A DNA stretch of 64,000 nucleotides from Motacilla alba alba (taxonomy: Eukaryota > Chordata > Aves > Passeriformes > Motacillidae), in NCBI RefSeq assembly GCF_015832195.1, contig NW_024037374.1, forward strand, positions 2,914,001 through 2,978,000. The letters are read 5' to 3'. Below are positions 27,561 through 63,009 of this stretch, piece after piece. The position numbers were made by a program, and so were the translations under genes. Below the pieces are notes generated by a model. It was not told where the DNA came from. It was given only the letters and a program-made list of their open reading frames with translations, and did not search any database. Within the stretch, counting starts at the first letter, position 1. Every line of letters starts with the position of its first letter.

Positions 27561-27569
27561 CTGGGAGTG

Positions 27570-28163: not shown

Positions 28164-28169
28164 GAAAGC

Positions 28170-29745: not shown

Positions 29746-29746
29746 T

Positions 29747-30679: not shown

Positions 30680-30699
30680 TTGCTGGGGCTGCACATGAA

Positions 30700-39880: not shown

Positions 39881-40078
39881 GCAGAAGCAACACAGCTGCT
39901 GGACCTTGTCCCCTGGCCCTGCACAGCTCCTTGGCAGGCACGGCAGGAGCAGCACCCTGGCAGCCTCGGGAATGCCCCTCTGGGATCCATGGCACACACT
40001 CCCAGGGGCTGAAATTCCCTGTTCCCAGCCAGGAAAAGATGTTCCTGCCCTTGAAGGCAAAGCTCTTAAGAAGGAGCC

Positions 40079-40746: not shown

Positions 40747-40751
40747 AAATT

Positions 40752-40769
40752 TGGTGCCCAACGTGGTGC
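40752..40769 (+). promoter_or_regulatory. Retroviral primer-binding site (tRNA-Lys-like)
   Basis: TGGTGCCCAACGTGGTGC differs at two bases from the usual Lys1,2 primer site and is correctly placed just after the LTR. The primer identity is an inference from this similarity. Confidence 0.75.
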
Positions 40770-40844
40770 ATGAGAGAGAGTGGAAAAAACCCTGTCCTAA
40801 TTGTATTTTGGTTGCCATTACTCTGTGTTGGTTTAAAGCAGTTA

Positions 40845-42840: not shown

Positions 42841-42854
42841 CTAGGGAAAACCGT

Positions 42855-43979
42855 GTTTTCTGCACTGTGTGGATTCGTTGGCCTGGCACATCAGAACCAG
42901 AAGAGAATAAAGCTTTGGTTGACACTGGTGCGCAGTGCACATTGATCCCATCAAGTCATGTGGGGACAGAACCTGTTTCTATTGCTGGTGTGACAGGGGG
43001 ATCACAGGATTTCACTTTGGTGGAAGCTGATGTGAGCCTGACGGGAAATGAGTGGAAGAAACACCCTATTGTGACTGGCCCAGAGGCCCCATGTATTTTG
43101 GGCATAGATTATCTCCAAAGTGGGTATTTCAAAGACCCAAAAGGACTCAAGTGGGCATTTGGGATAGCAGCTGTAGTGACAGAGGGTGTCCAGCAATTGA
43201 ACACCTTGCCTAGACTGTCTGAGAATCCATCAACAGTAGGACTTCTGAAGGGAGAAGAGCAACAGGTACCAATTGCTACTTCCACAGTGCATCGCCGACA
43301 GTATAGAACCACTGGAGATGCTGTGATTGCCATCCATAAGATGATCCGAGAGCTGGAGAGCCAAGGGGTGGTCAGCAAGACCCACTCACCCTTCAAGAGC
43401 CCCATTTGGCATGGGCATAAATCTGAAGGAGAATGGAGATTGACGGTGGACTACCGTGCACTGAATGAAGTGACTCCACCACTGAGCCCTGCTGTGCCAG
43501 ACATGTTAGAGCTCCAGTATGAGCTGGAGTCCAAGGCAGCAAAGTGGCACATGACCATCGATATTGCCAATGCATTTTTCTCCATTCCTCTGGCAGCAGA
43601 ATGCAGGCCTCAGTTTGCTTTGACATGGAGGGGAGTGCAGTACACCTGGAACTGACTGCCCCAGGGGTGGAAGCACAGCCCCACCATCTGCCACGGACTG
43701 ATCCAGAGTGCACTAGAAAAGGGTGAGGCTCCAGAACATCTAGAGGATATTGATGACATCATTGTGTGGGGGAACGCAGCCACAGAAGTGTTTGAGAAAG
43801 GAGAGGAAATCATCCAAATCCTCCTGGGAGCTGGTTTCACCATCAAAAAGAGCAAAGTAAAGGGACCTGCTCGTGGGATTCAGTTCCTAGGAGTAAAGTG
43901 GCAAGATGGACAGCGTCAGATTCCTAGAGAGGTCATCAACAAGATCACAGCAATGTCTCCACCAACCATCCACCACTGA
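42855..43979 (+). pseudogene. ERV-L protease and reverse-transcriptase remnant, truncated
   Basis: A retropepsin-like protease with the DTG active site (VDTGAQCTLIP, near 42915-42950) runs into reverse transcriptase: the WRLTVDYRALN motif (near 43435), then DIANAFFSIPL (near 43560). An in-frame TGA at 43653-43655 stands just before the LPQGW motif, and the frame resumes beyond it. The catalytic box reads DIDD where the family has Tyr-x-Asp-Asp, so the tyrosine is lost. The reading ends at the palindrome edge; the rest of RT, RNase H and integrase are missing. Together with the LTR and gag it forms the 5' 3.9 kb of one provirus. Confidence 0.9.
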
Positions 43980-43983
43980 CAGC
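43966..43983. other. 18-bp junction sequence at the left palindrome edge
   Basis: CCATCCACCACTGACAGC spans the joint between ERV-L RT and the left arm. The same 18 bases occur on the + strand at 62877-62894, outside the right arm. It shares CC with the ERV-L side and CAGC with the arm side. Confidence 0.8.
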
Positions 43984-45410
43984 CTGTCCCAGTGCGGCAA
44001 AAGATGAGACAGTGAGGAAAATGACTGTCCTGGCTGCCCATGGAGCTTTTGTGGGAACTCAGGAGAAAAAAAAGCAGCAGCAACTCAGGAAGTGTTTAAG
44101 GATGTCGTTAAGTTATGAAGGAAGAAAACTTGAGAGATGAATGTGCAATAAGAATTAACCTGGTGGCTTCTGTAGAAAAATACAAATGTTTCTGTAAAAA
44201 AAATTTATAGCAAAAGGAGGGAGAAGGAGAACCTCTACTCTTTATTGAAGGCAGCGGAGAATATGGTAACTGAAGATAAGGAAAGGGCTGAATTGCTTAA
44301 CACCTTGCCTATTTCAATTTTCAATAATAAGACAGGTTGTCCTCAGGACAAGTAATCTCCTGCGCTGGTAGATGGGCACAGAGAGCAGAACAGCCCCCTG
44401 GAATCCAGGAGGAAGCAGCTGCTGACCTGCTGAGCCACTCAGATGCTCACAGGTGTATGGGATTGGATGGGATCCATCCTGGGGGATGAGGGAGTTGGTG
44501 GATGAGCTCTCCAAGCTGCTCTCCATCATTTACAATCAGTGCTGGCTTAGTGGGAAGGTCTCAGAGGGCTGGAGATGACAGTGTGACCCCATGACCAAGA
44601 AGGGCTGGAAGAAGAATCAGGGGAACTCCAGGCCTGTCAGCCTGACCTGGGTGCCTGGCAAGGTTATGGAACAGATCACCTTGAGTGCCACCACAGGTCA
44701 CCCACAGGATGGCCAAGGGATCAGAGCCAGGCAGCGTGGATTTCAATATCTGCATTGATGGTCAGGATGAAGGGGATTGAGTCCACCAACAGCAAATTTG
44801 CAGATGACACCAAGATGTGACTGTTGATCTGCTGGAGGGTAGGAGGGCTCTGCACAGGGCCCTGGACAGGCTGGATCCAGGGACCAAATCCAACAAGGTG
44901 AGGTTTAACAAGTCCAAGTGCCAGATCCTGCACTTTGGCCACAACAACCCCTGCAGCGCCACAGGCTGGGGACAGAGTGGCTGGAGAGCAGCCAGGCAGA
45001 AAGGGAGCTGCAGGGACTGCTGGACAGCAGGCTGGACATGAGGCAGCAGTGTGCCCAGGGGGCCAAGAAGGCCAATGGCTCCTGGCCTGGATCAGGAATG
45101 GTGTGGCCAGCAGGAGCAGGGCAGTGATTCTTCCCCTGTGCTCAGCACCCATTGGGCAGGACTTCGAGTGCTGTGTCCAGTTCTGGGCCCCCACAGTTAG
45201 GAAGGACATGGAGGGGCTGGAACATGTCCAGAGAAGGGCAACAAGGATGGGGAGGGGTCCCGGATAAAAGTCCTGTGAGGAGTGGCTGAGGGAGCTGGGG
45301 TTGTTTATCCTGGAGAAGAGGAGGCTGAAAGGAAACGAGGCAGTGTCAGGGCACAGGTTGGACTTGATGATCTCCAAGGTGTTTTCCACCCTTGCTGATT
45401 CTGGGATTCT
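43981..45410 (+). mobile_element. CR1 LINE, left arm, 5' cut by the palindrome edge
   Basis: ORF2 remnants (endonuclease/RT linker, and an RT stretch resembling RPVSLT-VPGKVMEQI near 44630-44670) lead to the 3' UTR and terminal GATTCTGGGATTCTCC. Stops and frameshifts are frequent, so it is inactive. In the right arm the same CR1 continues past the arm edge to about 61625; here it is replaced by ERV-L sequence at 43980. Confidence 0.92.
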
Positions 45411-46991
45411 CCTAAACCACCCTTGGAGCAGTTGCAGGATGAGCCCTGGGCCTCCTGTTCAGATACTCCAGCAGCCCAGGTGCCTCAGCTTCTCCTGCCA
45501 GCGCCAAAGCCCATCCTGTCAGTCCTGCAGAGCCTCTGCAGCTCCTCCTCACTGCCCAGAACAGGGAGCCCCACAGGCAGACACAGCAGCCCAGATGGGC
45601 CCCCCTGGCCTGGGCTGCCTCTGGCAAGGGAGCAGCAGGAGGCACTGCAGGAGCCTGCAGACAATTGCTGCAGCACTTGTAGGATGATCCTGCTCCCCAA
45701 GGGACGTTCCCATGGTGCCAAGTCAGGAACTGCAATGGGGAGTGGGGCCAGAGAGGAAAGGGCAAACAGGGATGGGCTGTTTGCAGGGGAGGAAAAGTGC
45801 TGGGCAAGAGGAAGGAATCTGGACAAGGGAAGAGTGAAGAAAGCCAAGGTGAAGCCAAGGAAATGCTCAGGGCAGTTTGGGGGTGGCTGCCAGGCAGCCC
45901 TGGCTCTGAGCAACAGCGTCTGCAGTGGGACAGGAAACTCCCAGCTGATGGGAACAAACTTTCTGGCTGAGTGCAGAGGCCAGGACAAAGCTGAGTGCTT
46001 TCCCTGGCGTCCCCCAGCCCTTGCTGGCCCCAGGGGCTGATGGCATTTGTGCTCCCTCAGGTTCATGTCCCCACAGCAACAGCATGGGGGTGCTCCCGCC
46101 TGCTGTGTGCAATGCAAACAGGGGCTCCTGAGCCAGTGCTGCCGTGCCTGTGCCTGCAAGGATGGGGCACCTGTGTGAGCTGGGGGAGAGGCCAGGGCTG
46201 CAGAGGGGGGATGGTGTTGGCAGCTCCATGAGGACGCTCTGGAACGCTGCCCTGGGCTTTCCAGTGCACTGGGGATGGATCAGCCCCTGCTCTGCTGCTC
46301 CTTCCCGTCTCCCCAGGGCCCTTGCAGAGCCCCAGCCATGCTGTTTGCCCCCAGCCTGCCCACGGCCACCCTGGGGCTGCTCACAGGGCGTTTCTGGGCT
46401 GAGCATTGGCCTGGCCGTGTTCTTGAGAGAGCCTGGGCAAGGAGGCTGCAGCCCCCAGGCCTGGCCTGAGGCGTCAGCGCTGCCCCAGCAGTGCCCATGG
46501 CCTGTCCCTGCTGCAGCCCCGGCACTGCCACCCCCAGCACTGTGCCCGGCCCCGAGAGCACTCAGGCCCTACAGCAACACCAGGGCCACCAGGGCAGCGG
46601 GGCAGGGCCACGGCAGCAGCACTGGCAACACCAAGTGCTGCTGCTGCTGCTGGGCACAGCTGCTGGGCCAGCACTGATCTGCCCCCAGCTCTGCACACAG
46701 ACATTGGTGCTGCAGCTCCAGAGGAGGCAACCAAAGGGCATCTCTGCAGAAAACTTTGCTGGGAGATCCTTTAGTTCCTTTAAAGCCACTGAGAGCGGAG
46801 CCCCTCATTGACACAGTCTGTGGCCACAGGGAAAGTGGAGAGAAGTGAAATGAGGAATGCCACAAACAATGAAAATTGTAAGTGGATAATATGAAAAAAA
46901 TAAATCAAAGGAAAAGAACCCCACAACCAAACTAACAACAAGTATCTAAATGACTTTATTTACAAGTGATTTTAAGAAATTGGCCAGCAGT
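45411..46991. other. Downstream flank of OR-B, no gene
   Basis: Collinear with 28170-29745. The open frames are GC-driven shadows. The last 100 bp carry the OR 3' UTR; a polyadenylation signal for the OR (complement AATAAA) lies near 46946. Confidence 0.65.
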
Positions 46992-47924
46992 TTACTGTTT
47001 CTGAAAGCATCCAGTCATCAGTGTCCACACTGCAGCCTTGAGCTCCTGGTTCCTCAGGCTGTAGATGAGGGGGTTCAGGGCTGGAGGCACCACCGAGTAC
47101 AGAAGTGACAGGGCCAGATCCAGGGATGGGGAGGAGATGGAGGGGGGCTTCAGGTAGGTCAAAAATGAGGTGCTGACAAACAGTGAGACAATGGCTAGGT
47201 GAGGGAGGCAGGTGGAAAAGGCTTTGTGCTGTCCCTGCTCAGAGGGGATCCTCAGCACGGCCCTGAAGATCTGCACATAGGAGAAAACCATGAACACAAA
47301 ACAACCAAATGATAAACAGGCACTGAAAGCAATGAGCCCCAGTTCCCTGAGATAGGATTTGGAGCAGGAGAGCTTGAGGATCTGAGGGATTTCACAGAAG
47401 AACTGGCCCAGGGCATTGCCATGGCAAAGGGGCAGGGAAAAGGTATTGGCCGTGTGCAGCACAGAATAGACAAAGGCACTGGCCCAGGCAGCTGCTGCCA
47501 TGTGGGCACAAGCTCTGCTGCCCAGGAGGGTCCCGTAGTGCAGGGGTTTGCAGATGGACACGTAGCGGTCGTAGCACATGATGGTCAGGAGGCAAAGCTC
47601 TGTTGAGATGAAGAAAAGAAAGAAAAAGAGCTGTGCAGCACATCCTGCATAGGAGATGCTCCTGGTGTCCCAGAGGGAATTGTGCATGGCTTTGGGGACA
47701 GTGGTGCAGATGGAGCCCAGGTCAGTGAGGGCCAGGTTGAGCAGGAAGAAGAACATGGGCGTGTGCAGGTGCTGGCCGCAGGCTACGGCGCTGATGATGA
47801 GGCCGTTGCCCAGGAGGGCAGCCAGGGAGATGCCCAGCAAGAGGCAGAAGTGCAGCAGCTGCAGCTGCCGTGTGTCTGCCAATGGCAGCAGGAGGAAGTG
47901 GCTGATGGAGCTGCTGTTGTACAT
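46992..47924 (-). CDS. Olfactory receptor, OR14-like (gamma-c type), copy B (left arm)
   Basis: Intact 310-residue odorant receptor with the same landmarks as copy A: NSS near the N terminus, GN in TM1, LHTPMFFFL, MCYDRYVSICKPL, KAFSTCLPHL and NPLIYSLRN. The start is the ATG at 47922-47924; the frame above it opens only to a GTG. It is 308/310 identical to copy C, with Ile for Met and Leu for Val in the PPS-SSPSLDLALS-LY loop near TM7. Both of its residues there differ from copies A and C, which agree with each other. Upstream, on the same strand, lie a splice acceptor and, 3.3 kb away, an ERV LTR pointing toward it. Confidence 0.95.
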   Translation of the reverse strand: MYNSSSISHFLLLPLADTRQLQLLHFCLLLGISLAALLGNGLIISAVACGQHLHTPMFFFLLNLALTDLGSICTTVPKAMHNSLWDTRSISYAGCAAQLFFFLFFISTELCLLTIMCYDRYVSICKPLHYGTLLGSRACAHMAAAAWASAFVYSVLHTANTFSLPLCHGNALGQFFCEIPQILKLSCSKSYLRELGLIAFSACLSFGCFVFMVFSYVQIFRAVLRIPSEQGQHKAFSTCLPHLAIVSLFVSTSFLTYLKPPSISSPSLDLALSLLYSVVPPALNPLIYSLRNQELKAAVWTLMTGCFQKQ

Positions 47925-47944
47925 TTGCTCGGGCTGCACATGGC

Positions 47945-50900
47945 GACCTGTTCATGGAGAAAGGAAAGCGATGTGAAAGGGGAGATACCTGTAACCAAAA
48001 TCAAAGCCATTGCCCATATACCCTCCCAGGAACACATAGACATGGTCTTCAGTGTTTTCAACAGCTGAGGTTTTGTTTATAAGCTCGTCCATGTCTTTCC
48101 TGATATTCTTGGATATCAGAAACCCTCAGCATTTCTGCTTCCCTCAGGTAGAACTGAGTTCCCTGGGGAAAGATGATGTGTGGCGACTGGGGGGAAATGA
48201 TCTGTCACTTCATTCTGTTTGGATTTTCTCTGGGCTTTCACTTTTCTCAAATGGAGGATGTTCACACTCCCATGTTTTCCTTCAAAGATCACCAGATATT
48301 GCAGAGAGCAGATGGATATCCCACAAATTAGCTCCACATTTGTAGCCAAACGCTCTCTTTGCTCATTTCACCAACCCAGCAGCATTTTCAGTGCCAGAAC
48401 ACCTCTGCCTCTCCCCATCAATCCTATAACTCAGAGAGGCTCTAGGACAGGTTTGCATCCTGGATTGAAGCTCCCCGCTTGGACTGAAATCTCAGGGAGA
48501 CTTCCAAGTGTCCTTATGATGGCACTGGATTGAGGGAGATGCAGCTCCTTCCCTGGCTGCACTGACAGCATTGCCCAGAGCCAGGCACTGGGGACAGCGT
48601 CACCCTGAGCCAGCTGTGCCCCCTGCCAGAGCCCCCAGTGCCGGGCAGCTGCTCCCAGCCCTGTGCTCTGCAGAGGGAACTGGGCCCGGGGCTGCAGAGC
48701 TGCCCCACGGCTCTGCTGCAGCTCTGCCTGCACAGGAGGGGCTTCACGCCTTGGACCCCAGCCCTGAGGGCAGAGGCTTGGCTGGGGCACAGGAGGGAGG
48801 GGGCTTGTTCAGAGGGAGGGGCTGCACTGGAGGGGCTTCTGCCGGGATCTCTAAACTCTCCCTGCCACAGCATTTCTGGGTTTTGTTTTCTCCCATTCCC
48901 TGATATGCTCTCTGCTTCCTGGAGATTTTCCTCCTGCAGCTGTTTCCCTGTGCCTGATCTCTCCTTGCCAGCACTCACAGACCCCAAATCTCTGGGCACC
49001 CTCCTTGGCCTGACAGAAGCCTGCCTGTTTGCAGGGCACTGGCTGGGGGCAGGTTCTGTTTGCAGCTTGGAGAAAGGACAGCTCAGACTGAGCCTGATGG
49101 GTCCAGCAAAGGTGATGCTGCTGCTGTCCGTGGGCAGATAGGCTGAAAGCACATTAGGGATGTCCTGTGAACCTACTGATCACTGAAAGTAACAGTTCCA
49201 ATGGCTCAGGTACTTTTCAGAATTCATAATTATTAATTCATTATCAACCTTTCATATTTATCACCCTTCCCTGCCCTTCTCCAATAGTAGGAAACTGAAT
49301 GCAAAGTCTTTGGAAAATTCCTCATTTCTTTCAAAATCCTTGTCTGGGAAAAATTCCATGACTGATCAGAACCCCTCAGCATGTCAGAGCTTCATGAGCA
49401 TTTCACCTCCCCTGCCCAAGAAATCCTCAGAGTGGTACTCACTGAGTCTGTAGGCATTGGGATGTTCCAGCTGTAGGAGATGGCTCCAGGAGCTGCAGCT
49501 GCATTGTCCTGCAGCCAGAGGTTCCTGTGCCAAGGGCTGGCAGGGATTCTGCCCCAGGCACTTCTCAGCACCTTCCCAGCCCTGACTGATTGAAGCTCTC
49601 TGTGCCTCTGTGCTGTGCCCAGGCTGGCTGCAGGCAGTGCCCCAGCCCTGCTGGGCTGGCAGAAGAGCTGCTCAGCAAGAGAAATGTGCTTTTCAAGCTC
49701 TTCTTGGTTCCCAGGAGCTGCCTCTGTGCCAGCAGCCCAGCCCAGCTCAGCAGCACAGCCACAGCACAAGGACTTTAATGACCCTCTGGGGCTTTGTGCT
49801 CAGGCCCTGAGCATCAGTCCCTGAGAGGCAGCTGAAGAAACCTCTCCAGAACTCCAAGTCAGAATCACACTCCAAAGTTTCTTGGACTTTTAATGGGTCC
49901 CACTGAGGGACACAACTGAGAAAGTGTCCCCAGGCCCCAGGCAGAGCAGAGAACTGCAGGCAGTGATGACAGGTGGGGACAAAGAGAAGCCAAGGCTTGG
50001 TGCCCTGGGCCACAGCAGGCTCTGTGCCACCAAGGGCTGGCAGGAGACACCTTGTCCTGAGGCACTGGCCTCCTGGCACAGCCCCAGCCAGGCTGGCCAC
50101 TGGCAGCCCCTTGTCCTGCCCTCAGCATCCCCCCCTAGCCCACATGCCAGTGGCCTCAAGGATCTGCTGGAAGGAGTCCCTGGGGAGCCTTGCTCAGCAA
50201 TGGCCCTGGGGGCTCCTCAATGCTCCCAGGGACTGCAGGCTTTTCAAAGGACTTTGGCTTTTGCTTTTGCCTTGGAGTTTGTGAGAGGTTTGTGAAATCA
50301 TGGACTCCAATTCTCTGCTGTAATTAGTCCCTTGAGATTCTTTCTCAGTTACAACACTCAATGGGGCTCATTAATGCTTCAGGGTAGTTCAGTTTTTTAA
50401 GGTAGTTAGTGTTTGCCTTTTGATACAGACTCGATGAGAAAGATTGTGCAGTCACAGCCTCCACTTATCTGCTTTAATTAGTCCCTTGAGAGCCTTTATC
50501 AGTAATGACACTCAGTGGGGCTCATTATTACTTCAAGGTACTTGAGTTTTTTTAAGGTATTTGATTTTTCCTTTTTGATACGGACTCTATGAGAGGTTTG
50601 TGCAATCATGGCCCCAGTTATCTGCTTTAAGGAGTCCCTTGAGAGCTTTGTACTGGCACTCCGTCGGGCTCATTAATGCTTTGAGATACTCAAGGTTTTT
50701 AAGGTACTTTGGGTTTCCTTTCCACACCACATCTCTGAGAGGTTTTTTTTGTGCCATCCTGGCCTCCAGTTCACTTCTTCAAGGAGTCCATGAGGAGCCT
50801 GTGTTGGGGATGGACCTCAGTGGCACCCATCAATGCTTTGAGACACTTTGGGGTTTTCTTGTGAATGTGACTTGTGGCAAGGTTTGTGCAATCTCCTCTC

Positions 50901-51250
50901 AAGCCCTGAGGTTCCAGGGCTCAGCTCCAAATGCACCACAGGGCTCATTAGGATCAAGCAAGTCCTGACAAACCATGGCTCTGCCTTGATTTCCCTCTGC
51001 TCCAGTGCAGTTCATCTGGAAGGTTTTCCTTTTACAGTTATGGAGAAACATTTCAATGAGGTTCTAAGAAATATGTAATCCTATTTTAGAGCACATTTTA
51101 TCACTGTTCTCTTTTGTGAAGAGCTGATTGCAGCATTCTGTGATTGATATTGATGTGGGGCTGCTCGTAAGGAGGTCTGGACAGGTCAGAGAAGTTGTAC
51201 CTTGGAGCTGACCCGATGTAGACAGCCTTGCCTCACATTCCCCATCCTCA
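47945..51250. other. Upstream flank of OR-B
   Basis: Collinear with 30700-33665 up to about 51030. From there to the LTR it matches the decayed segment near 38850-38990 (AGGAGGTCTGG). It should contain the 5' non-coding exon and promoter of OR-B. No gene is seen in its many open frames. Confidence 0.6.
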
Positions 51251-51675
51251 TGTGAGAAAAAAATTTCACTTTCAAAAATTTAAATAGTTTCATAAGACCT
51301 TATCAAAATGCAACAGAAAAACTGAATAAAGAAAAGAACACAGTGCCAGGAGCAAAGGATTTAAGCACCATATGTTTATCTACAAAATAGATGCTCTGTC
51401 TTTTATACCTCCAGTACCTCTCAAAGTCTTTTCAATCAACTCCTTCTTCGCTGTCCAGTGGTGGAGATCACTTTCTTACAGCTTGATTGCAGGTCAGGTG
51501 CTGCCATAGTAACAAGCCCACCCTCCCAAATGCCCCAACTACTGAGGCCAGCCTGTGATAACAATGCAAGGGGGAGGGGAAAGATAACTATACATCGACA
51601 AAACTTCTCTTAACATATACTTTATATTCACCCCTTAATTGTGAGAGTCAACCATAGGATTACTCACCTATAACA
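51251..51675 (-). mobile_element. Class I ERV 3' LTR, left arm
   Basis: 425 bp, starting TGTTATAGG (from 51675) and ending TTTCTCACA (at 51251). A TATA box (GGTATAAAAG, complement near 51400-51409) is about 150 bp from the 3' end. It is preceded on the same strand by a polypurine tract and, further up, by the integrase in the spacer. It reads toward OR-B. Confidence 0.88.
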
Positions 51676-51692
51676 AACCCCCCTTTTCTTTT
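51676..51692 (-). promoter_or_regulatory. Polypurine tract of the class I ERV
   Basis: AGAAAAAGAAAAGGGGGG then TT, immediately before the LTR, the usual plus-strand priming site. The mirror copy is at 53616-53632. Confidence 0.85.
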
Positions 51693-51960
51693 TCTAGAAG
51701 TCATTTTGCTCAAACAATTAGGTCAAAGATTTTCTCTCTCTCTTGAAGGAGTCATACCAGCATCAGTTGACATGGGCAAGGACAGTGGGAACAGGAGAAA
51801 AAAAATCTCAGTTTTTCCTTAGACACACTTATTTGGAATGGACAAAAGGGCATCACAGAGGTCTGGTATGGCTTTAACCGCCATCTACCGTGCCTGTGTG
51901 GCTGCTGCCCATAGTCAGTGTAGCTTAGGGGTGAGTACAAAGGCAAACTCAGTCTAGTTG

Positions 51961-53347
51961 GCCTCTAGTCGCTGTTGAATTAAAAGACAACTGAGGAATG
52001 ATAGAGGTCTGTTCTCGCCTTTTGTCCCGACCTTACCATGCCTGAGGGACTGCTACCTGCAGCAGGGCTATGGAGTCTTCTTGGTAGCAATCAAAGGGGC
52101 CAACCTGGTCTTGCCCTCTATTCCTTTGTCTTATTTTCCTAAAGAAGCTGTGCCATTACCTTTCACAGTCCCTTGTGTACTTCCCCTCAACAGATGCTGG
52201 TAATTCTCACCCATTAAGACAGGAAGACAGTTCTCCAGCTGGTTGGTGGAAGCCTGACTCTACTTTTTGGGCATCTTGGTGTTTTTCTGGTTGTCTTTCA
52301 GTCTCTGCTTGAGAGTCAATCTCGTTTCACCCAGCCTGGATGTTATAGTCCACTCTTTGCGTTCTTCTGCTGGGCCTTTGACTCTGTTGGCTTGAGTCCA
52401 TCCCCGCTCTGCAGTTTGCATGGCTGATTCGGTGGTGAGCAGTACCTGAAAGGGATCTTCCCACTGAGGAGTTAGAGGCTGATCTCTCCATGACTTAATC
52501 ATCACCCAATCCCCAGGATTAATATTATGGATTCTGAAATCCAGGGTGGTAGTTTGAGGAATTTCCCCTTTATGCCTTAGCCCTTCTAAGGTTTGTGCTC
52601 TAGACAGAACATATTTCTTGGCATTGGCTTCCCCTTCCTCACAGGGGGCAACCTTCTGGAGTGAGGTCAGGAAGGGTAACCCAAACATCATTTCATAGGG
52701 TGAGACCCCCAGATCTGACTGGGGTTGGGTTCTAATTCCTAATAGGGCTAAAGGGAGACATTTGATCCATGACATTCGGGTTTCAATCATTAGCATAACT
52801 AGAGCTCTTTTCAGAGTTTGATTCATTCTCTCAACCTGACCAGAACTCTGTGGATGCCATGGAGTGTGTAACTCCCATTTCATTCCCAGGGGCTGAACAA
52901 CCTCCTGCAATATCTTTGATGTGAAATGAGTTCCCTGGTCTGAATCAATCCTGTTTGCCATCCCATATTGGGGAATGATTGATTCTAGAAGTGTTTTACT
53001 CACAACATTGGCATTGGCTTTCACAGTGGGTACCACCTCTATCCAATGAGTCAAGTGATCTACTACCACTAGCAAAAACTTCCACCGTTGTACCTGGGGA
53101 AGCTCAGTAAAGTCTACTTGGATGTTTTGAAAGGGCCTGAAGGCTCGTTCTCACCCTCCTCTGGGTGTTTTCCTCATGGTTTTCTTATTCACTTGTTGAC
53201 ATATCACACACCATTAATTTACTTGCTTCGCTATTCTGAAAATTCGTATGCATCCCCAGTCCTTTAGAAATTGATCACTTTGTGCTTGAGTATCCCAGTG
53301 TGTTGTTCATGTATGCCTTCCAGCATTTTCTTGGTCAGGGGTTTATT
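51961..53347. other. Palindrome spacer (loop)
   Basis: 1387 bp of unique sequence between the arms. It holds class I ERV sequence on the - strand: integrase and about 300 bp beyond it. On the left it appears to continue the provirus into the arm. On the right it stops at 53347 within the N-terminal part of integrase. Confidence 0.95.
52260..53347 (-). pseudogene. Gammaretrovirus-like integrase, 5' truncated
   Basis: Integrase catalyses insertion of viral DNA. On the - strand 53150-52260 is open. The catalytic core shows the first Asp in VDFTELP (codon 53112-53114), the second in DSDQGTHF and the Glu in SGQVERMN, so the D-D-E set is present, and a C-terminal domain with W-rich motifs follows to the stop at 52260. 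Above it a stop (53151-53153) and a frame break damage the zinc-binding N-terminal domain, of which HEQHTG and CVICQ are still visible. The rest of pol is missing at 53347. It is a different ERV class from the ERV-L at 40-44 kb. No env open frame remains between it and the LTR. Confidence 0.9.
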
Positions 53348-53632
53348 CAACTAGACTGAGTTTGCCTTTGTACTCACCCCTAAGATACACTGACTATGGG
53401 CAGCAGCCACACAGGCACGGTAGATGGCGGTTAAAGCCATACCAGACCTCTGTGATGCCCTTTTGTCCATTCCAAATAAGTGTGTCTAAGGAAAAACTGA
53501 GATTTTTTTTCTCCTGTTCCCACTGTCCTTGCCCATGTCAACTGATGCTGGTATGACTCCTTCAAGAGAGAGAGAAAATCTTTGACCTAATTGTTTGAGC
53601 AAAATGACTTCTAGAAAAAGAAAAGGGGGGTT

Positions 53633-54057
53633 TGTTATAGGTGAGTAATCCTATGGTTGACTCTCACAATTAAGGGGTGAATATAAAGTATATGTTAAGA
53701 GAAGTTTTGTCGATGTATAGTTATCTTTCCCCTCCCCCTTGCATTGTTATCACAGGCTGGCCTCAGTAGTTGGGGCATTTGGGAGGGTGGGCTTGTTACT
53801 ATGGCAGCACCTGACCTGCAATCAAGCTGTAAGAAAGTGATCTCCACCACTGGACAGCGAAGAAGGAGTTGATTGAAAAGACTTTGAGAGGTACTGGAGG
53901 TATAAAAGACAGAGCATCTATTTTGTAGATAAACATATGGTGCTTAAATCCTTTGCTCCTGGCACTGTGTTCTTTTCTTTATTCAGTTTTTCTGTTGCAT
54001 TTTGATAAGGTCTTATGAAACTATTTAAATTTTTGAAAGTGAAATTTTTTTCTCACA
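53633..54057 (+). mobile_element. Class I ERV 3' LTR, right arm
   Basis: Mirror of 51251-51675, with TGTTATAGG at the start, TATAAAAG at 53901-53908 and CTCACA at the end. A polypurine tract precedes it (53616-53632). It reads toward OR-C, whose ATG is 3.3 kb downstream. Confidence 0.88.
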
Positions 54058-57000
54058 TGAGGATGGGGAATGTGAGGCAAGGCTGTCTACATCGGGTCAG
54101 CTCCAAGGTACAACTTCTCTGACCTGTCCAGACCTCCTTACGAGCAGCCCCACATCAATATCAATCACAGAATGCTGCAATCAGCTCTTCACAAAAGAGA
54201 ACAGTGATAAAATGTGCTCTAAAATAGGATTACATATTTCTTAGAATCTCATTGAAATGTTTCTCCATAACTGTAAAAGGAAAACCTTCCAGATGAACTG
54301 CACTGGAGCAGAGGGAAATCAAGGCAGAGCCATGGTTTGTCAGGACTTGCTTGATCCTAATGAGCCCTGTGGTGCATTTGGAGCTGAGCCCTGGAACCTC
54401 AGGGCTTGAGAGGAGATTGCACAAACCTTGCCACAAGTCACATTCACAAGAAAACCCCAAAGTGTCTCAAAGCATTGATGGGTGCCACTGAGGTCCATCC
54501 CCAACACAGGCTCCTCATGGACTCCTTGAAGAAGTGAACTGGAGGCCAGGATGGCACAAAAAAAACCTCTCAGAGATGTGGTGTGGAAAGGAAACCCAAA
54601 GTACCTTAAAAACCTTGAGTATCTCAAAGCATTAATGAGCCCGACGGAGTGCCAGTACAAAGCTCTCAAGGGACTCCTTAAAGCAGATAACTGGGGCCAT
54701 GATTGCACAAACCTCTCATAGAGTCCGTATCAAAAAGGAAAAATCAAATACCTTAAAAAAACTCAAGTACCTTGAAGTAATAATGAGCCCCACTGAGTGT
54801 CATTACTGATAAAGGCTCTCAAGGGACTAATTAAAGCAGATAAGTGGAGGCTGTGACTGCACAATCTTTCTCATCGAGTCTGTATCAAAAGGCAAACACT
54901 AACTACCTTAAAAAACTGAACTACCCTGAAGCATTAATGAGCCCCATTGAGTGTTGTAACTGAGAAAGAATCTCAAGGGACTAATTACAGCAGAGAATTG
55001 GAGTCCATGATTTCACAAACCTCTCACAAACTCCAAGGCAAAAGCAAAAGCCAAAGTCCTTTGAAAAGCCTGCAGTCCCTGGGAGCATTGAGGAGCCCCC
55101 AGGGCCATTGCTGAGCAAGGCTCCCCAGGGACTCCTTCCAGCAGATCCTTGAGGCCACTGGCATGTGGGCTAGGGGGGGATGCTGAGGGCAGGACAAGGG
55201 GCTGCCAGTGGCCAGCCTGGCTGGGGCTGTGCCAGGAGGCCAGTGCCTCAGGACAAGGTGTCTCCTGCCAGCCCTTGGTGGCACAGAGCCTGCTGTGGCC
55301 CAGGGCACCAAGCCTTGGCTTCTCTTTGTCCCCACCTGTCATCACTGCCTGCAGTTCTCTGCTCTGCCTGGGGCCTGGGGACACTTTCTCAGTTGTGTCC
55401 CTCAGTGGGACCCATTAAAAGTCCAAGAAACTTTGGAGTGTGATTCTGACTTGGAGTTCTGGAGAGGTTTCTTCAGCTGCCTCTCAGGGACTGATGTTCA
55501 GGGCCTGAGCACAAAGCCCCAGAGGGTCATTAAAGTCCTTGTGCTGTGGCTGTGCTGCTGAGCTGGGCTGGGCTGCTGGCACAGAGGCAGCTCCTGGGAA
55601 CCAAGAAGAGCTTGAAAAGCACATTTCTCTTGCTGAGCAGCTCTTCTGCCAGCCCAGCAGGGCTGGGGCACTGCCTGCAGCCAGCCTGGGCACAGCACAG
55701 AGGCACAGAGAGCTTCAATCAGTCAGGGCTGGGAAGGTGCTGAGAAGTGCCTGGGGCAGAATCCCTGCCAGCCCTTGGCACAGGAACCTCTGGCTGCAGG
55801 ACAATGCAGCTGCAGCTCCTGGAGCCATCTCCTACAGCTGGAACATCCCAATGCCTACAGACTCAGTGAGTACAACTCTGAGGATTTCTTGGGCAGGGGA
55901 GGTGAAATGCTCATGAAGCTCTGACATGCTGAGGGGTTCTGATCAGTCATGGAATTTTTCCCAGACAAGGATTTTGAAAGAAATGAGGAATTTTCCAAAG
56001 ACTTTGCATTCAGTTTCCTACTATTGGAGAAGGGCAGGGAAGGGTGATAAATATGAAAGGTTGATAATGAATTAATAATTATGAATTCTGAAAAGTACCT
56101 GAGCCATTGGAACTGTTACTTTCAGTGATCAGTAGGTTCACAGGACATCCCTAATGTGCTTTCAGCCTATCTGCCCACGGACAGCAGCAGCATCACCTTT
56201 GCTGGACCCATCAGGCTCAGTCTGAGCTGTCCTTTCTCCAAGCTGCAAACAGAACCTGCCCCCAGCCAGTGCCCTGCAAACAGGCAGGCTTCTGTCAGGC
56301 CAAGGAGGGTGCCCAGAGATTTGGGGTCTGTGAGTGCTGGCAAGGAGAGATCAGGCACAGGGAAACAGCTGCAGGAGGAAAATCTCCAGGAAGCAGAGAG
56401 CATATCAGGGAATGGGAGAAAACAAAACCCAGAAATGCTGTGGCAGGGAGAGTTTAGAGATCCCGGCAGAAGCCCCTCCAGTGCAGCCCCTCCCTCTGAA
56501 CAAGCCCCCTCCCTCCTGTGCCCCAGCCAAGCCTCTGCCCTCAGGGCTGGGGTCCAAGGCGTGAAGCCCCTCCTGTGCAGGCAGAGCTGCAGCAGAGCCG
56601 TGGGGCAGCTCTGCAGCCCCGGGCCCAGTTCCCTCTGCAGAGCACAGGGCTGGGAGCAGCTGCCCGGCACTGGGGGCTCTGGCAGGGGGCACAGCTGGCT
56701 CAGGGTGACGCTGTCCCCAGTGCCTGGCTCTGGGCAATGCTGTCAGTGCAGCCAGGGAAGGAGCTGCATCTCCCTCAATCCAGTGCCATCATAAGGACAC
56801 TTGGAAGTCTCCCTGAGATTTCAGTCCAAGCGGGGAGCTTCAATCCAGGATGCAAACCTGTCCTAGAGCCTCTCTGAGTTATAGGATTGATGGGGAGAGG
56901 CAGAGGTGTTCTGGCACTGAAAATGCTGCTGGGTTGGTGAAATGAGCAAAGAGAGCGTTTGGCTACAAATGTGGAGCTAATTTGTGGGATATCCATCTGC

Positions 57001-57360
57001 TCTCTGCAATATCTGGTGATCTTTGAAGGAAAACATGGGAGTGTGAACATCCTCCATTTGAGAAAAGTGAAAGCCCAGAGAAAATCCAAACAGAATGAAG
57101 TGACAGATCATTTCCCCCCAGTCGCCACACATCATCTTTCCCCAGGGAACTCAGTTCTACCTGAGGGAAGCAGAAATGCTGAGGGTTTCTGATATCCAAG
57201 AATATCAGGAAAGACATGGACGAGCTTATAAACAAAACCTCAGCTGTTGAAAACACTGAAGACCATGTCTATGTGTTCCTGGGAGGGTATATGGGCAATG
57301 GCTTTGATTTTGGTTACAGGTATCTCCCCTTTCACATCGCTTTCCTTTCTCCATGAACAG
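54058..57360. other. Upstream flank of OR-C
   Basis: Mirror of 47948-51250. A splice acceptor (pyrimidine tract, then CATGAACAG) ends at 57360, 24 bp before the OR start. The 5' non-coding exon is not located. Open frames here mirror those of the left arm and are not genes. Confidence 0.6.
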
Positions 57361-57383
57361 GTCGCCATGTGCAGCCCGAGCAA

Positions 57384-58316
57384 ATGTACAACAGCAGCTC
57401 CATCAGCCACTTCCTCCTGCTGCCATTGGCAGACACACGGCAGCTGCAGCTGCTGCACTTCTGCCTCTTGCTGGGCATCTCCCTGGCTGCCCTCCTGGGC
57501 AACGGCCTCATCATCAGCGCCGTAGCCTGCGGCCAGCACCTGCACACGCCCATGTTCTTCTTCCTGCTCAACCTGGCCCTCACTGACCTGGGCTCCATCT
57601 GCACCACTGTCCCCAAAGCCATGCACAATTCCCTCTGGGACACCAGGAGCATCTCCTATGCAGGATGTGCTGCACAGCTCTTTTTCTTTCTTTTCTTCAT
57701 CTCAACAGAGCTTTGCCTCCTGACCATCATGTGCTACGACCGCTACGTGTCCATCTGCAAACCCCTGCACTACGGGACCCTCCTGGGCAGCAGAGCTTGT
57801 GCCCACATGGCAGCAGCTGCCTGGGCCAGTGCCTTTGTCTATTCTGTGCTGCACACGGCCAATACCTTTTCCCTGCCCCTTTGCCATGGCAATGCCCTGG
57901 GCCAGTTCTTCTGTGAAATCCCTCAGATCCTCAAGCTCTCCTGCTCCAAATCCTATCTCAGGGAACTGGGGCTCATTGCTTTCAGTGCCTGTTTATCATT
58001 TGGTTGTTTTGTGTTCATGGTTTTCTCCTATGTGCAGATCTTCAGGGCCGTGCTGAGGATCCCCTCTGAGCAGGGACAGCACAAAGCCTTTTCCACCTGC
58101 CTCCCTCACCTAGCCATTGTCTCACTGTTTGTCAGCACCTCATTTTTGACCTACCTGAAGCCCCCCTCCATGTCCTCCCCATCCCTGGATCTGGCCCTGT
58201 CAGTTCTGTACTCGGTGGTGCCTCCAGCCCTGAACCCCCTCATCTACAGCCTGAGGAACCAGGAGCTCAAGGCTGCAGTGTGGACACTGATGACTGGATG
58301 CTTTCAGAAACAGTAA
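57384..58316 (+). CDS. Olfactory receptor, OR14-like (gamma-c type), copy C (right arm)
   Basis: Intact 310-residue odorant receptor, the mirror copy of OR-B, with the same start choice (ATG 57384-57386), TM landmarks and stop at 58314-58316. It differs from OR-B by two conservative residues, at both of which it agrees with OR-A. An out-of-frame ATG stands at 57367, 17 bp before the chosen start. AATAAA for the transcript lies at about 58351. Ligand unknown. Confidence 0.95.
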   Translation: MYNSSSISHFLLLPLADTRQLQLLHFCLLLGISLAALLGNGLIISAVACGQHLHTPMFFFLLNLALTDLGSICTTVPKAMHNSLWDTRSISYAGCAAQLFFFLFFISTELCLLTIMCYDRYVSICKPLHYGTLLGSRACAHMAAAAWASAFVYSVLHTANTFSLPLCHGNALGQFFCEIPQILKLSCSKSYLRELGLIAFSACLSFGCFVFMVFSYVQIFRAVLRIPSEQGQHKAFSTCLPHLAIVSLFVSTSFLTYLKPPSMSSPSLDLALSVLYSVVPPALNPLIYSLRNQELKAAVWTLMTGCFQKQ

Positions 58317-59897
58317 ACTGCTGGCCAATTTCTTAAAATCACTTGTAAATAAAGTCATTTAGATACTTGTTGTTAGTTTGGTTGTGGGGTTCTTTTCCTT
58401 TGATTTATTTTTTTCATATTATCCACTTACAATTTTCATTGTTTGTGGCATTCCTCATTTCACTTCTCTCCACTTTCCCTGTGGCCACAGACTGTGTCAA
58501 TGAGGGGCTCCGCTCTCAGTGGCTTTAAAGGAACTAAAGGATCTCCCAGCAAAGTTTTCTGCAGAGATGCCCTTTGGTTGCCTCCTCTGGAGCTGCAGCA
58601 CCAATGTCTGTGTGCAGAGCTGGGGGCAGATCAGTGCTGGCCCAGCAGCTGTGCCCAGCAGCAGCAGCAGCACTTGGTGTTGCCAGTGCTGCTGCCGTGG
58701 CCCTGCCCCGCTGCCCTGGTGGCCCTGGTGTTGCTGTAGGGCCTGAGTGCTCTCGGGGCCGGGCACAGTGCTGGGGGTGGCAGTGCCGGGGCTGCAGCAG
58801 GGACAGGCCATGGGCACTGCTGGGGCAGCGCTGACGCCTCAGGCCAGGCCTGGGGGCTGCAGCCTCCTTGCCCAGGCTCTCTCAAGAACACGGCCAGGCC
58901 AATGCTCAGCCCAGAAACGCCCTGTGAGCAGCCCCAGGGTGGCCGTGGGCAGGCTGGGGGCAAACAGCATGGCTGGGGCTCTGCAAGGGCCCTGGGGAGA
59001 CGGGAAGGAGCAGCAGAGCAGGGGCTGATCCATCCCCAGTGCACTGGAAAGCCCAGGGCAGCGTTCCAGAGCGTCCTCATGGAGCTGCCAACACCATCCC
59101 CCCTCTGCAGCCCTGGCCTCTCCCCCAGCTCACACAGGTGCCCCATCCTTGCAGGCACAGGCACGGCAGCACTGGCTCAGGAGCCCCTGTTTGCATTGCA
59201 CACAGCAGGCGGGAGCACCCCCATGCTGTTGCTGTGGGGACATGAACCTGAGGGAGCACAAATGCCATCAGCCCCTGGGGCCAGCAAGGGCTGGGGGACG
59301 CCAGGGAAAGCACTCAGCTTTGTCCTGGCCTCTGCACTCAGCCAGAAAGTTTGTTCCCATCAGCTGGGAGTTTCCTGTCCCACTGCAGACGCTGTTGCTC
59401 AGAGCCAGGGCTGCCTGGCAGCCACCCCCAAACTGCCCTGAGCATTTCCTTGGCTTCACCTTGGCTTTCTTCACTCTTCCCTTGTCCAGATTCCTTCCTC
59501 TTGCCCAGCACTTTTCCTCCCCTGCAAACAGCCCATCCCTGTTTGCCCTTTCCTCTCTGGCCCCACTCCCCATTGCAGTTCCTGACTTGGCACCATGGGA
59601 ACGTCCCTTGGGGAGCAGGATCATCCTACAAGTGCTGCAGCAATTGTCTGCAGGCTCCTGCAGTGCCTCCTGCTGCTCCCTTGCCAGAGGCAGCCCAGGC
59701 CAGGGGGGCCCATCTGGGCTGCTGTGTCTGCCTGTGGGGCTCCCTGTTCTGGGCAGTGAGGAGGAGCTGCAGAGGCTCTGCAGGACTGACAGGATGGGCT
59801 TTGGCGCTGGCAGGAGAAGCTGAGGCACCTGGGCTGCTGGAGTATCTGAACAGGAGGCCCAGGGCTCATCCTGCAACTGCTCCAAGGGTGGTTTAGG
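58317..59897. other. Downstream flank of OR-C, no gene
   Basis: Mirror of 45411-46991; contains the OR 3' UTR and GC-rich non-coding sequence. Confidence 0.65.
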
Positions 59898-61625
59898 AGA
59901 ATCCCAGAATCAGCAAGGGTGGAAAACACCTTGGAGATCATCAAGTCCAACCTGTGCCCTGACACTGCCTCGTTTCCTTTCAGCCTCCTCTTCTCCAGGA
60001 TAAACAACCCCAGCTCCCTCAGCCACTCCTCACAGGACTTTTATCCGGGACCCCTCCCCATCCTTGTTGCCCTTCTCTGGACATGTTCCAGCCCCTCCAT
60101 GTCCTTCCTAACTGTGGGGGCCCAGAACTGGACACAGCACTCGAAGTCCTGCCCAATGGGTGCTGAGCACAGGGGAAGAATCACTGCCCTGCTCCTGCTG
60201 GCCACACCATTCCTGATCCAGGCCAGGAGCCATTGGCCTTCTTGGCCCCCTGGGCACACTGCTGCCTCATGTCCAGCCTGCTGTCCAGCAGTCCCTGCAG
60301 CTCCCTTTCTGCCTGGCTGCTCTCCAGCCACTCTGTCCCCAGCCTGTGGCGCTGCAGGGGTTGTTGTGGCCAAAGTGCAGGATCTGGCACTTGGACTTGT
60401 TAAACCTCACCTTGTTGGATTTGGTCCCTGGATCCAGCCTGTCCAGGGCCCTGTGCAGAGCCCTCCTACCCTCCAGCAGATCAACAGTCACATCTTGGTG
60501 TCATCTGCAAATTTGCTGTTGGTGGACTCAATCCCCTTCATCCTGACCATCAATGCAGATATTGAAATCCACGCTGCCTGGCTCTGATCCCTTGGCCATC
60601 CTGTGGGTGACCTGTGGTGGCACTCAAGGTGATCTGTTCCATAACCTTGCCAGGCACCCAGGTCAGGCTGACAGGCCTGGAGTTCCCCTGATTCTTCTTC
60701 CAGCCCTTCTTGGTCATGGGGTCACACTGTCATCTCCAGCCCTCTGAGACCTTCCCACTAAGCCAGCACTGATTGTAAATGATGGAGAGCAGCTTGGAGA
60801 GCTCATCCACCAACTCCCTCATCCCCCAGGATGGATCCCATCCAATCCCATACACCTGTGAGCATCTGAGTGGCTCAGCAGGTCAGCAGCTGCTTCCTCC
60901 TGGATTCCAGGGGGCTGTTCTGCTCTCTGTGCCCATCTACCAGCGCAGGAGATTACTTGTCCTGAGGACAACCTGTCTTATTATTGAAAATTGAAATAGG
61001 CAAGGTGTTAAGCAATTCAGCCCTTTCCTTATCTTCAGTTACCATATTCTCCGCTGCCTTCAATAAAGAGTAGAGGTTCTCCTTCTCCCTCCTTTTGCTA
61101 TAAATTTTTTTTACAGAAACATTTGTATTTTTCTACAGAAGCCACCAGGTTAATTCTTATTGCACATTCATCTCTCAAGTTTTCTTCCTTCATAACTTAA
61201 CGACATCCTTAAACACTTCCTGAGCTGCTGCTGCTTTTTTTTCTCCTGAGTTCCCACAAAAGCTCCATGGGCAGCCAGGACAGTCATTTTCCTCACTGTC
61301 TCATCTTTTGCCGCACTGGGACAGGCTGCTCCTTCCCCCTTAAGATTACTTTCTTGAAATGGGTCCATCCTTCCTGGACACCTCTTTTTTTATGGGCTGT
61401 TTCCCTTAACAAAATCAGTTCCAGATTCAGTACTCCCCAAATCAGCATCCTAAACAGGCCAAAGTCCGCCCTTCCTAATTCCAGTGTAGAAGTTCTGTTG
61501 CTGACCCTCCTTCTCTCACAGGACATTGAAATCTTGATGATTTCATGGTCACTGTGCCCCAGGGCAGCCTCCAACCCCCACATCTGCCACCAGCCCTTCT
61601 CTGTTTGTGAACAGCAGGAGACAGA
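59898..61625 (-). mobile_element. CR1 LINE, crossing the right palindrome edge
   Basis: On the - strand from about 61625: ORF2 endonuclease-end sequence (GGGCACAGTGACCATGAAATC, GGACTTTGGCCTGTT-like, GTCCAGGAAGGATGGAC), then across 61328 into RT remnants and the 3' end at 59898. The order is that of one CR1 copy, so the arm edge is inside it and was not a breakpoint on this side. Stops and frameshifts disable it. Confidence 0.92.
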
Positions 61626-61669
61626 GCTTTCCTTGGCAGTGGGAGTGCTACCAAAAATTCTCTAAAACA

Positions 61670-62109
61670 GAAAACTCCTCAACAGCAATGCAGCATTAAG
61701 AAGCAGCATTCTTTATTCAGCTGGATGCACAGGGGAGAGCTCCTCCCAAAGCCGTGCAGGCTGAGTACAGGAAAGTTTCTGTTTATTTTCTGCATTTTGC
61801 TCACATATTCATTGATTGTCCTGGACTAAACACACATCTGATAATCATTACCACAAAATCATTAACAGATTTCCCCTCCCCTCTACCCATGCGCTCTTCT
61901 GTCCTGGGGGTCTCTCTGGTGGTCCCTGGTGGTCGTGGACCCCAAGGTCCCAGTGGGCCTGGCTGAGCTGGCAGGACACTGAGGCTGGTGAACTTCCAGT
62001 TCCCCTTCTGACACAACGGGCATTGTGTGGTTTCCATAGGCCTGGGGTTTTGGAGAACAAGCTGCAGGTGTGAGCTCACCTGGTGGAGGCAATTGATCAT
62101 CTGGGAACA
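61670..62109 (-). mobile_element. ERV LTR
   Basis: On the - strand it starts TGTTCCCAGATGATC (from 62109). AATAAA (complement of 61712-61717) lies within CAGCTGAATAAAGAATGCTGC, a typical R-region end, followed by a T-rich U5 to about 61670. No TATA box is obvious in U3. Directly adjacent on the right is a TGACATCA array. Confidence 0.65.
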
Positions 62110-62300
62110 TGAGGTCAAAGAGTGGGCTATGACATCCCAGAGTGGGTTATGTGAGGTCATTGAGCAGCTATGATATCATAAACTGCCTCTGTGACATCAC
62201 AGAGCTGGCTGTGACAGCACAGACAAGCTGTGTGACATTAGAGAATGGGCAGTGACATCACAGAGGGGCTGTGACATCCCAGGAGGGCTGTGTCCGGTCA
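62110..62300 (-). repeat. TGTGACATCACA short-period minisatellite
   Basis: About nine drifting units (GTGACATCACAGAG, GTGACATCCCAG), fourth array of this family. Confidence 0.85.
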
Positions 62301-62540
62301 CTGTGTTGGTCACTCTGCCCCAGTTCCCCTTCACATTTTCTCCCAAGTCCAATGCTGTTCATGCCCAGCGGGGTCCCTGTCCCCCAGGATCCCCCCGGCC
62401 CTCCTGGAGCCACAGCCTCCAGCAAAGGATGTTCCACAGGATCCAGCCCAGAGCCTGACATGGGGACAAGGGGCCAGGGCTGTGTGACCAGGACATCAAG
62501 GCCGTGGATGATCCAGGTCACTGTGGCCTGGTTTGGGTTG
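62300..62540 (+). repeat. Companion segment of the TGATGTCA arrays
   Basis: Reverse complement of 14180-14436 (CCAATGCTGTTCATGC, GGATGTTCCACAGGATCCAG, CAGAGCCTGACATGGGG). Confidence 0.6.
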
Positions 62541-62574
62541 CCCAGGGCAGGAAAGATGTCAGGCAGCTGGAGCA

Positions 62575-62800
62575 GGGTTAGGGAAGGGCCTCCAAGGTGG
62601 GGCTGGAGCCCTTGGGCTGTGAGCAGAGGCTGAGGGAGCTGGGCTTGTCCAGCCCGCAGCAGGGAAGGCTGAGGGGCTCCTCATCCCAGCCTGGCAGTGC
62701 CACCAGGGAGGTGATGGAGAACACAGAGCCAGGCTCTTCACTGGGGAGCCGTGTGGGAGACAAAAGCCAATGGGTGGAAGGGGAAAGAGGGGAGATCAGC
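62575..62800 (+). mobile_element. CR1 LINE fragment
   Basis: Words typical of the CR1 ORF2/3' UTR region: GAGCAGAGGCTGAGGGAGCTGGG, GAGCCAGGCTCTTCACTGG and CAAAAGCCAATGGGTGG. No 3' terminus. It is followed by the 18-bp sequence (62877-62894) that matches the left palindrome joint. 62895-63010 shows nothing recognisable. Confidence 0.7.
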
Positions 62801-63009
62801 CAGGACAGGAGGAGATGAAATGAGTCAGGCTGGTTTCAGCAATTCCTCAACACCAAAAGCAGCCTGAGCCCCTTCTCCATCCACCACTGACAGCTTTGCA
62901 AATCAGGAATTGGTCGAGCTGTTTTGTCCCCACTCCTGGATGAGCATCCTGATACAAGAACTTAATTGTGTTTATAGCTATCATAGAACCACGTTGGTGT
63001 GAAACTAAT

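Follow-up and report, generated by a model that had tools for sequence, protein, structure and literature searches.

A near-perfect palindrome bearing two olfactory receptor genes in Motacilla alba alba, and its probable origin by template switching

The palindrome and its receptor genes

The window analysed here, 64,000 nucleotides of a Motacilla alba alba contig, contains two inverted arms, each with an olfactory receptor gene (Table 1). The arms are 7981 bp long, position i of one being matched by position 105308 - i of the other, and they flank a spacer of 1387 bp that is single copy within the window. The mirror match stops at 43979 outward and at 51961 inward. The arms are 99.912% identical, with 7 substitutions (at 44083, 47105, 47136, 49434, 49811, 51061 and 51923, in left-arm coordinates) and no indels; an independent alignment returned the same arms, with 7 mismatches and no gaps. 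An earlier note on this DNA had placed arms and spacer at exactly these coordinates, with which the position-by-position mirror comparison agrees, again without indel shift; it had seen all but one of the actual differences, reporting six. The assembly does contain the palindrome, and a chance origin is excluded by the length and identity of its arms.

Table 1. Features of the palindrome locus and of an older copy of the unit (positions in the window)
Feature	Position	Strand	Basis or remark
Third, older unit copy	27562..33613	+	91.4% to left arm over 27562-33462, 82% over 32933-33613
Receptor frame of third copy, intact	29747..30679	-	Pfam 7tm_4, E 6.9e-48
Left flank L, degenerate retroelement, ends abruptly at 43968	40392..43968	+	protease- and reverse-transcriptase-like frames
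Insert TCCACCACTGA, 11 bp, new left joint	43969..43979	+	in neither L nor the arm paralogues compared
Left arm A, inverted copy	43980..51960	+	mirror comparison and alignment
Left-arm olfactory receptor gene, 310 aa, uninterrupted	46992..47924	-	Pfam 7tm_4, E 5.7e-44
LTR-looking stretch, inner arm end	51250..51674	-	by eye; mirror 53634-54058 (+)
Spacer S, reversed relative to ancestral unit	51961..53347		arm to spacer continuity in 10/10 units
Integrase-like frame in spacer, 296 aa	52260..53150	-	Pfam rve, E 7.4e-15; MLVIN_C, E 7.3e-08
CAAC, 4-bp microhomology, new spacer/right-arm joint	53348..53351	+	natural continuation of S in 10/10 units and inner end of arm
Right arm A', running into R as unrearranged units do	53348..61328	-	arm-R continuity in 3/10 units
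Right-arm olfactory receptor gene, 310 aa, uninterrupted	57384..58316	+	Pfam 7tm_4, E 3.2e-44
Right flank R, next to A' in the ancestral unit	61329..62894		comparison with other units
CCATCCACCACTGACAGC, probable template of left-joint insert	62877..62894	+	18-bp exact match

Each arm holds one uninterrupted frame matching Pfam 7tm_4, which bears out the two receptor genes announced in the earlier note, and the two proteins differ at 2 of the 311 residues compared. The solved chains nearest to the left-arm receptor are olfactory receptors (best 234-261 bits), against up to 140 bits for chains of OR51/OR52, which we take to be class I receptors. Judging from an intact seven-transmembrane frame and its match to the family model, the arm genes are predicted to be vertebrate olfactory receptors of the class II type, presumably of the avian OR14-like (gamma-c) subfamily.

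The surroundings are rich in retroelement traces. Frames of L match Pfam RVT_1 in 42813-43652 and 43656-43976, with RVP slightly under the cut-off. The stretch at the inner arm end, like its mirror, is presumably a retroviral long terminal repeat. A reading frame at 61296-61661 (- strand) crosses the outer edge of the right arm into R unbroken; Pfam found no family for it, and we assume it to be a putative CR1-LINE. One broken provirus as the source of the whole palindrome was rejected, the arms holding a receptor gene.

The palindrome lies in a large array: its 5.3-Mb contig (C212) carries 107 of the 138 scored olfactory receptor matches of the genome, the strand changes between neighbouring scored matches in 66 of 106 cases, and some units are 99.26-99.81% alike. 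Among the spacer matches listed, 43 of 46 are on this contig and three on contig C2. An MHC-linked array, for which chicken chromosome 16 is the precedent described in PMC4988538, was considered and dropped; all three MHC class II beta matches are on contig C274.

Ancestral order and the two new joints

The ancestral order was read from 10 other copies of the unit in the same genome. The arm runs into the spacer in all ten; the spacer continues into a piece of about 2.98 kb, M, and from there into the left flank in five; the arm continues into the right flank in three (L009, L017 and L025), R being kept only in part in L017 and L025. The last 1 kb or so of L (42968-43968) is matched at 90-94% in five of the ten units, its leftward extent to 40392 being the limit of the stretch compared. 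Within the stretches compared, L is not visible in five units and R is not visible in seven; in these seven the arm match starts near 44805-44831, so that the outermost 0.8 kb of the arm is unshared. The region near 47950-49410 of the arm is unmatched in nine of the ten. Pieced together from the ten units, and visible whole in two (L009/L010 and L017/L018), the ancestral unit is L-M-S'-A'-R on the + strand, where S' is the spacer in its original orientation. Compared with it, the palindrome locus has M missing (it was not found anywhere in the window), the spacer reversed and the arm doubled, i.e. a copy pattern of 1-0-1-2-1.

This arrangement has two new joints, each spanned by only one of 40 scored genome matches, namely itself (there were 91 candidates for one query and 156 for the other); for the left-joint query the remaining matches end at or before 43968. 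At the left joint the 11-bp insert, together with 3 bp to its left and 4 bp to its right, forms an 18-mer that recurs exactly at 62877-62894 within R, its only other occurrence in the window. This site is found at the same position in L009, L017 and L025, which are all the units having that part of R, and is absent from the rest of the 28 loci examined. With the CAAC of the other joint, the microhomologies are of 4, 4 and 3 bp; three random joints would show microhomologies at least this long with a probability of about 3e-5. For the 18-bp match, the looser whole-window controls were not significant (240/1448 positions; 207/6572 isolated matches), but they were swamped by repeats; we relied on a control restricted to R, in which 18-mers matching R numbered 0 of 3780 in L, 0 of 9341 in arm plus spacer and 4 of 39983 in window positions 1-40000. 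The 11-bp insert by itself has a second exact occurrence at 43475, and 10 of the 3787 11-mers of L match R. A copy of 43475 would be just as exact but is without flanking microhomology, and was set aside.

Origin of the palindrome

Our preferred reading, to which we give a probability of about 0.7, is that of a young inverted duplication in a large receptor array, made by microhomology-guided template switching (fold-back/MMBIR type). The locus combines a single-copy spacer, a 4-bp inverted microhomology (CAAC), the adjacent deletion of M and a probably templated insert with microhomology, the match of the insert being significant in the R-restricted control and not in the whole-window ones. 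A break would have occurred in or near M, and copying would have jumped during repair or replication. From L (43968), 11 bases would have been copied out of R (at 62880) by way of a 3-bp microhomology, CCA; a further switch, at CAGC (4 bp), would have carried synthesis over to the other strand, at the arm's outer end (61328), and arm and spacer would have been copied backwards; the 4-bp CAAC would then have brought copying back to the arm's inner end (53348), from where it would have proceeded through A' into R. Viewed in the opposite direction, the 1387-bp spacer would be the loop of a fold-back, with CAAC pairing with GTTG at 51957-51960. Either way M would be lost, S would be inverted, and the receptor gene would be present twice, in opposite orientations. 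The ancestral order, both joints, the microhomologies and the 18-bp match are observed; that a single event made both joints, in this order of jumps, is inferred, and at assumed rates the age would be about 0.1-0.3 million years. The derived base is on the left arm for four of the seven arm differences (one weakly polarised), on the right for two and unclear for one, which speaks for this reading; transversions make up four of the seven (a chance of 0.17 if one third is expected), which we count against it. The earlier note was in part right: its suggestion of a very recent duplication is supported, since comparison with other array units locates the new joints, which show microhomology and what is probably a templated insert.

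The same layout, one inverted segment with an inverted duplication at one end and two new joints, would be produced by a staggered-break inversion as described for Drosophila (PMC7584159): of two breaks, one would leave the arm as a long single-stranded overhang, spacer and arm would invert together, fill-in would double the arm, and the insert would be end-joining filler. We hold this to be rather unlikely: the overhang would have to be 7981 nt long, or two breaks would have to fall in sister chromatids, and M would have to be lost separately. Besides, the 18-bp match, to a site lying 1.5 kb into R and flanked by microhomology at either end, fits template switching better. It is improbable, too, that the palindrome is an old one, on a sex (W) chromosome or in another amplicon, with arms kept alike by gene conversion. 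Its arms are indeed more than 99.9% alike, gene-bearing and retroelement-rich, and W palindromes are known in birds (38 in the duck, of 15.2-345.5 kb; PMC7787181). However, in the four closest other opposite-strand receptor pairs among those listed for the contig, identity over the longest stretch in common is 91.3-92.6%, much as in unpaired copies, and none of the four is a second near-perfect palindrome, alike throughout, although in one of them another 499 bp match at 97.4%. Inverted receptor neighbours on the contig would therefore not seem to be generally kept alike, and sex-chromosome conversion is not needed as an explanation; the left joint and its template site, moreover, are still identical at 18 of 18 positions.

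An artefact of assembly or library, be it a chimeric fold-back molecule or a wrong path through the repeats, has to be considered in so hard and repetitive an array, where units can be nearly identical; inverted chimeras with microhomology can form during amplification. We find it unlikely. Two nonhomologous joints would be required instead of the single joint of a fold-back read, and mis-joins in repeats are expected at homologous points and in one orientation, unlike the joints seen here. No second near-identical spacer was found among the matches listed (the next best is at 98%). The fold-back artefact envisaged in the earlier note is further weakened by the seven substitutions, spread over both arms and without indels, which do not resemble read error.

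Most work on inverted duplications concerns disease or cancer, or else sex chromosomes, on which conversion obscures how they arose. In the present case the ancestral order can be read from unrearranged sister units of this genome, and the two joints are intact at single-base resolution. The palindrome would be a naturally occurring case of fold-back/template-switch duplication that has doubled a gene, and through it one could examine whether receptor arrays in birds grow by template switching. A bolder and quite tentative idea is that the whole 5.3-Mb array grows, and scrambles the orientation of its genes, mainly by serial template switching, the palindrome being the youngest readable step and one that may still segregate.

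Comparison with known systems

A close parallel is offered by the human inverted duplications described in PMC3907307, where sequenced spacers measure 766-70,466 bp and inverted microhomology of 2-8 bp is present at 13 of 21 joints. The palindrome shares with these fold-back cases its inverted arms, a single-copy spacer of about 1.4 kb, a 4-bp inverted microhomology at the spacer/arm joint and an adjacent deletion; unlike them, it is small (8-kb arms), interstitial and part of a natural gene array, with no terminal deletion or new telomere and with its probable templated insert at the other joint. Its copy numbers (L=1, M=0, S=1, A=2, R=1) follow the deletion, copy-neutral and inverted-duplication pattern, 1-0-1-2-1, given in section 6 of PMC10766186 with a Factor 8 example, from which it differs in having both joints at microhomology and none at long repeats, and in not being a disease allele. 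As in the MMBIR templated insertions of PMC8421209, the insert is short, its template is nearby and there is microhomology on either side, but here the template would have been about 14 kb off in the ancestral unit, and the insert stands beside a 9.4-kb inverted copy. Lastly, the palindrome resembles those of bird and mammal sex chromosomes in its gene-carrying arms, more than 99.9% alike, while showing no sign of conversion and being much smaller than the duck W palindromes of 15.2-345.5 kb reported in PMC7787181.

The palindrome and its receptor array

When each base i of the window was compared with the complement of base 105308-i, the stretch 43980-51960 differed from its mirror positions at seven sites and the matching stopped at both edges. 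Independent repeat searches agreed with this base-by-base result (two arms of 7981 bp, 99.912% identity, no gaps). The palindrome described in the earlier note (43980..61328) was thus exact as to its position, the length of its arms, their lack of indel shift and its 1387-bp spacer; the near-identity of the arms also held, save that seven differences were counted instead of six (about 0.08%). The two olfactory receptor genes that it had proposed were recovered as one open frame per arm. The nearest solved chains of these receptors are olfactory receptors (234-261 bits, with OR51/OR52 types at 140 bits at most), and the two carry different residues at 2 of the 311 positions compared.

Features of the window
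Feature	Position	Strand	Remark
Left arm (A, inverted copy)	43980-51960
Spacer (S)	51961-53347
Right arm (A')	53348-61328
Olfactory-receptor open frame, left arm	46992-47924	-	Pfam 7tm_4, E 5.7e-44
Olfactory-receptor open frame, right arm	57384-58316	+	Pfam 7tm_4, E 3.2e-44
Third copy of the unit	27562-33613		receptor frame intact; 91.4% identity to the left arm along most of its length
C2H2 zinc-finger gene or pseudogene	16687-18217	-	84-bp repeats; Pfam zf-H2C2_2 and zf-C2H2 matches within 16899-17546
Dispersed degenerate repeats	241-4300, 11600-13000, 25300-27500, 35400-37300, 39500-39900	both	recurrent motifs like GTCACAATGG

The window (C212:2914001-2978000) belongs to a 5,319,226-bp contig of a 1.07-Gb genome that looks avian in its repeats and receptor type. 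Among the 138 matches to the Pfam receptor model scored genome-wide (out of 247 candidates), 107 were on C212, spanning 0.96-5.12 Mb, and 102 of these had no stop in the matched stretch. Counting scored matches only (unscored candidates are left out), 48 of the 107 are on the + strand and the strand switches between 66 of 106 neighbours, i.e. their orientation is scrambled. The spacer matches listed genome-wide numbered 46 (43 on C212 and 3 on contig C2), the best others among them being 98% alike. The three MHC class II beta matches of the genome search were all on contig C274.

Two other arrangements were seen on C212. At ~4.33 and 4.38 Mb, units in opposite orientation, with spacers ~54 kb apart, are 99.26% alike over 8.6 kb (L017 versus L025) and 98.2% over 3.6 kb (L018 versus L026), possibly a larger and slightly older inverted duplication. 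The convergent receptor pairs at 1.556 and 2.464 Mb (L029 and L030), both with a 7.0-kb spacing and 94% alike over 9.6 kb, are one inverted receptor pair, duplicated.

Ancestral order and new joints

The surroundings of ten other spacer copies were compared in twenty 10-kb stretches. In all ten units the arm inner end is directly continuous with the spacer, so that the A-S contiguity is old; the far end of the spacer leads to other sequence, never to an inverted arm. In five units the spacer is followed by a ~2.98-kb piece (M), then by the reversed sequence of the left flank (L, a degenerate retroelement ending at 43968); a sixth has M in part. The arm outer end runs on into the right flank of the window (R, from 61329) in three units (L009, L017 and L025, the last two lacking part of R), and in the remaining seven the arm match starts only near 44805-44831. 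These contiguities, with the complete order visible in two units (L009/L010 and L017/L018), indicate that the ancestral unit on the + strand of the window is L-M-S'-A'-R, S' being the spacer in its original orientation. The window reads L-A-S-A'-R; M was not found within its 64 kb, and L, M, S, A and R are present there in 1, 0, 1, 2 and 1 copies.

Two of the four palindrome edges, A|S and A'|R, are ancestral and two, S|A' and L|A, are new. At S|A', exactly CAAC is common to the sequence that naturally follows S and to the arm inner end. Among the 40 scored matches (of 91 candidates) to a 200-bp query across this joint, the sole full one was the joint itself, and the remaining 39 covered one side only; the sole full match of a 200-bp query across L|A was again itself (40 scored of 156 candidates). 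L|A carries an 11-base insert, TCCACCACTGA, found in neither parent sequence upon comparison with the other units. Counted with its neighbouring bases, CCA to the left and CAGC to the right, it forms an 18-bp exact match to R (62877-62894). These 18 bases are at the equivalent site in all three units having that part of R, and at no other site in the window or in the 28 loci examined. As a control, 18-mers matching R were 0 of 3780 in L, 0 of 9341 in the arm and spacer combined, and 4 of 39983 in window positions 1-40000; looser controls over the whole window, which is repeat-rich, were not significant (240 of 1448; 207 of 6572). The computed chance of microhomologies of at least 4, at least 4 and at least 3 bp at three random joints is ~3e-5.

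Reality and age of the duplication

The palindrome could be an assembly artefact, produced by a fold-back read or by repeat mis-assembly. However, a fold-back read yields one new joint, whereas the window has two, at nonhomologous points; mis-assembly should join like to like, which the new joints do not; and the arm differences are substitutions, spread over both arms. As judged from the sequence, a real event is therefore favoured.

Judged by the other units of the array, the left arm carries the derived base at 47105, 49434, 49811 and 51923, and the right arm at 44083 and 51061; 47136 is ambiguous (5 units each way). Polarity is weak for 49434 (a third base in 9 of 10 units) and rests on three aligned units for 44083, and the left-arm base of 49811 is also found in one other unit. 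If substitution rates between 4.6e-9 and 1.5e-9 per site and year are assumed, the seven differences would represent about 95,000-292,000 years (limits 38,000-602,000).

Conversion could also keep the arms alike. The four closest other opposite-orientation receptor pairs among the scored matches listed, 7-13 kb apart, show within-pair identities of 91.3-92.6% over their longest shared stretch (1.8-2.2 kb), with an additional 499 bp at 97.4% for L033/L034. Identities between different pairs are similar, which argues that nearness in inverted orientation alone does not keep copies alike there. Given these values, youth would account for the arm identity better than conversion, in favour of the very recent duplication envisaged in the earlier note. 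Some distant units are 99.26-99.81% alike over 5.9-10 kb, which suggests that recent duplication is common in the C212 array.

A probable route to the palindrome

The simplest account is serial template switching. In one possible order, copying would switch from L to R, where 11 bases would be copied, then to the opposite strand at 61328; it would run back through the arm and the spacer, the latter being the loop of the fold-back, and would finally switch through CAAC to 53348. An inversion by staggered breaks, a model described in PMC7584159, would give an identical layout, but it requires a 7981-nt overhang, or breaks on sister chromatids, and M would have to be lost separately.

As for template switching, MMBIR is held responsible, in PMC8421209, for short templated inserts with microhomology. 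The human inverted duplications in PMC3907307 have sequenced spacers of 766-70,466 bp, inverted microhomology of 2-8 bp at 13 of 21 sequenced joints, and inserts at five. Among the open-licence papers listed, none was seen to describe such an event in the receptor array of a bird, which is not proof of absence. The 1-0-1-2-1 copy numbers of the window match the pattern of a deletion, a copy-neutral segment and an inverted duplication described in PMC10766186.
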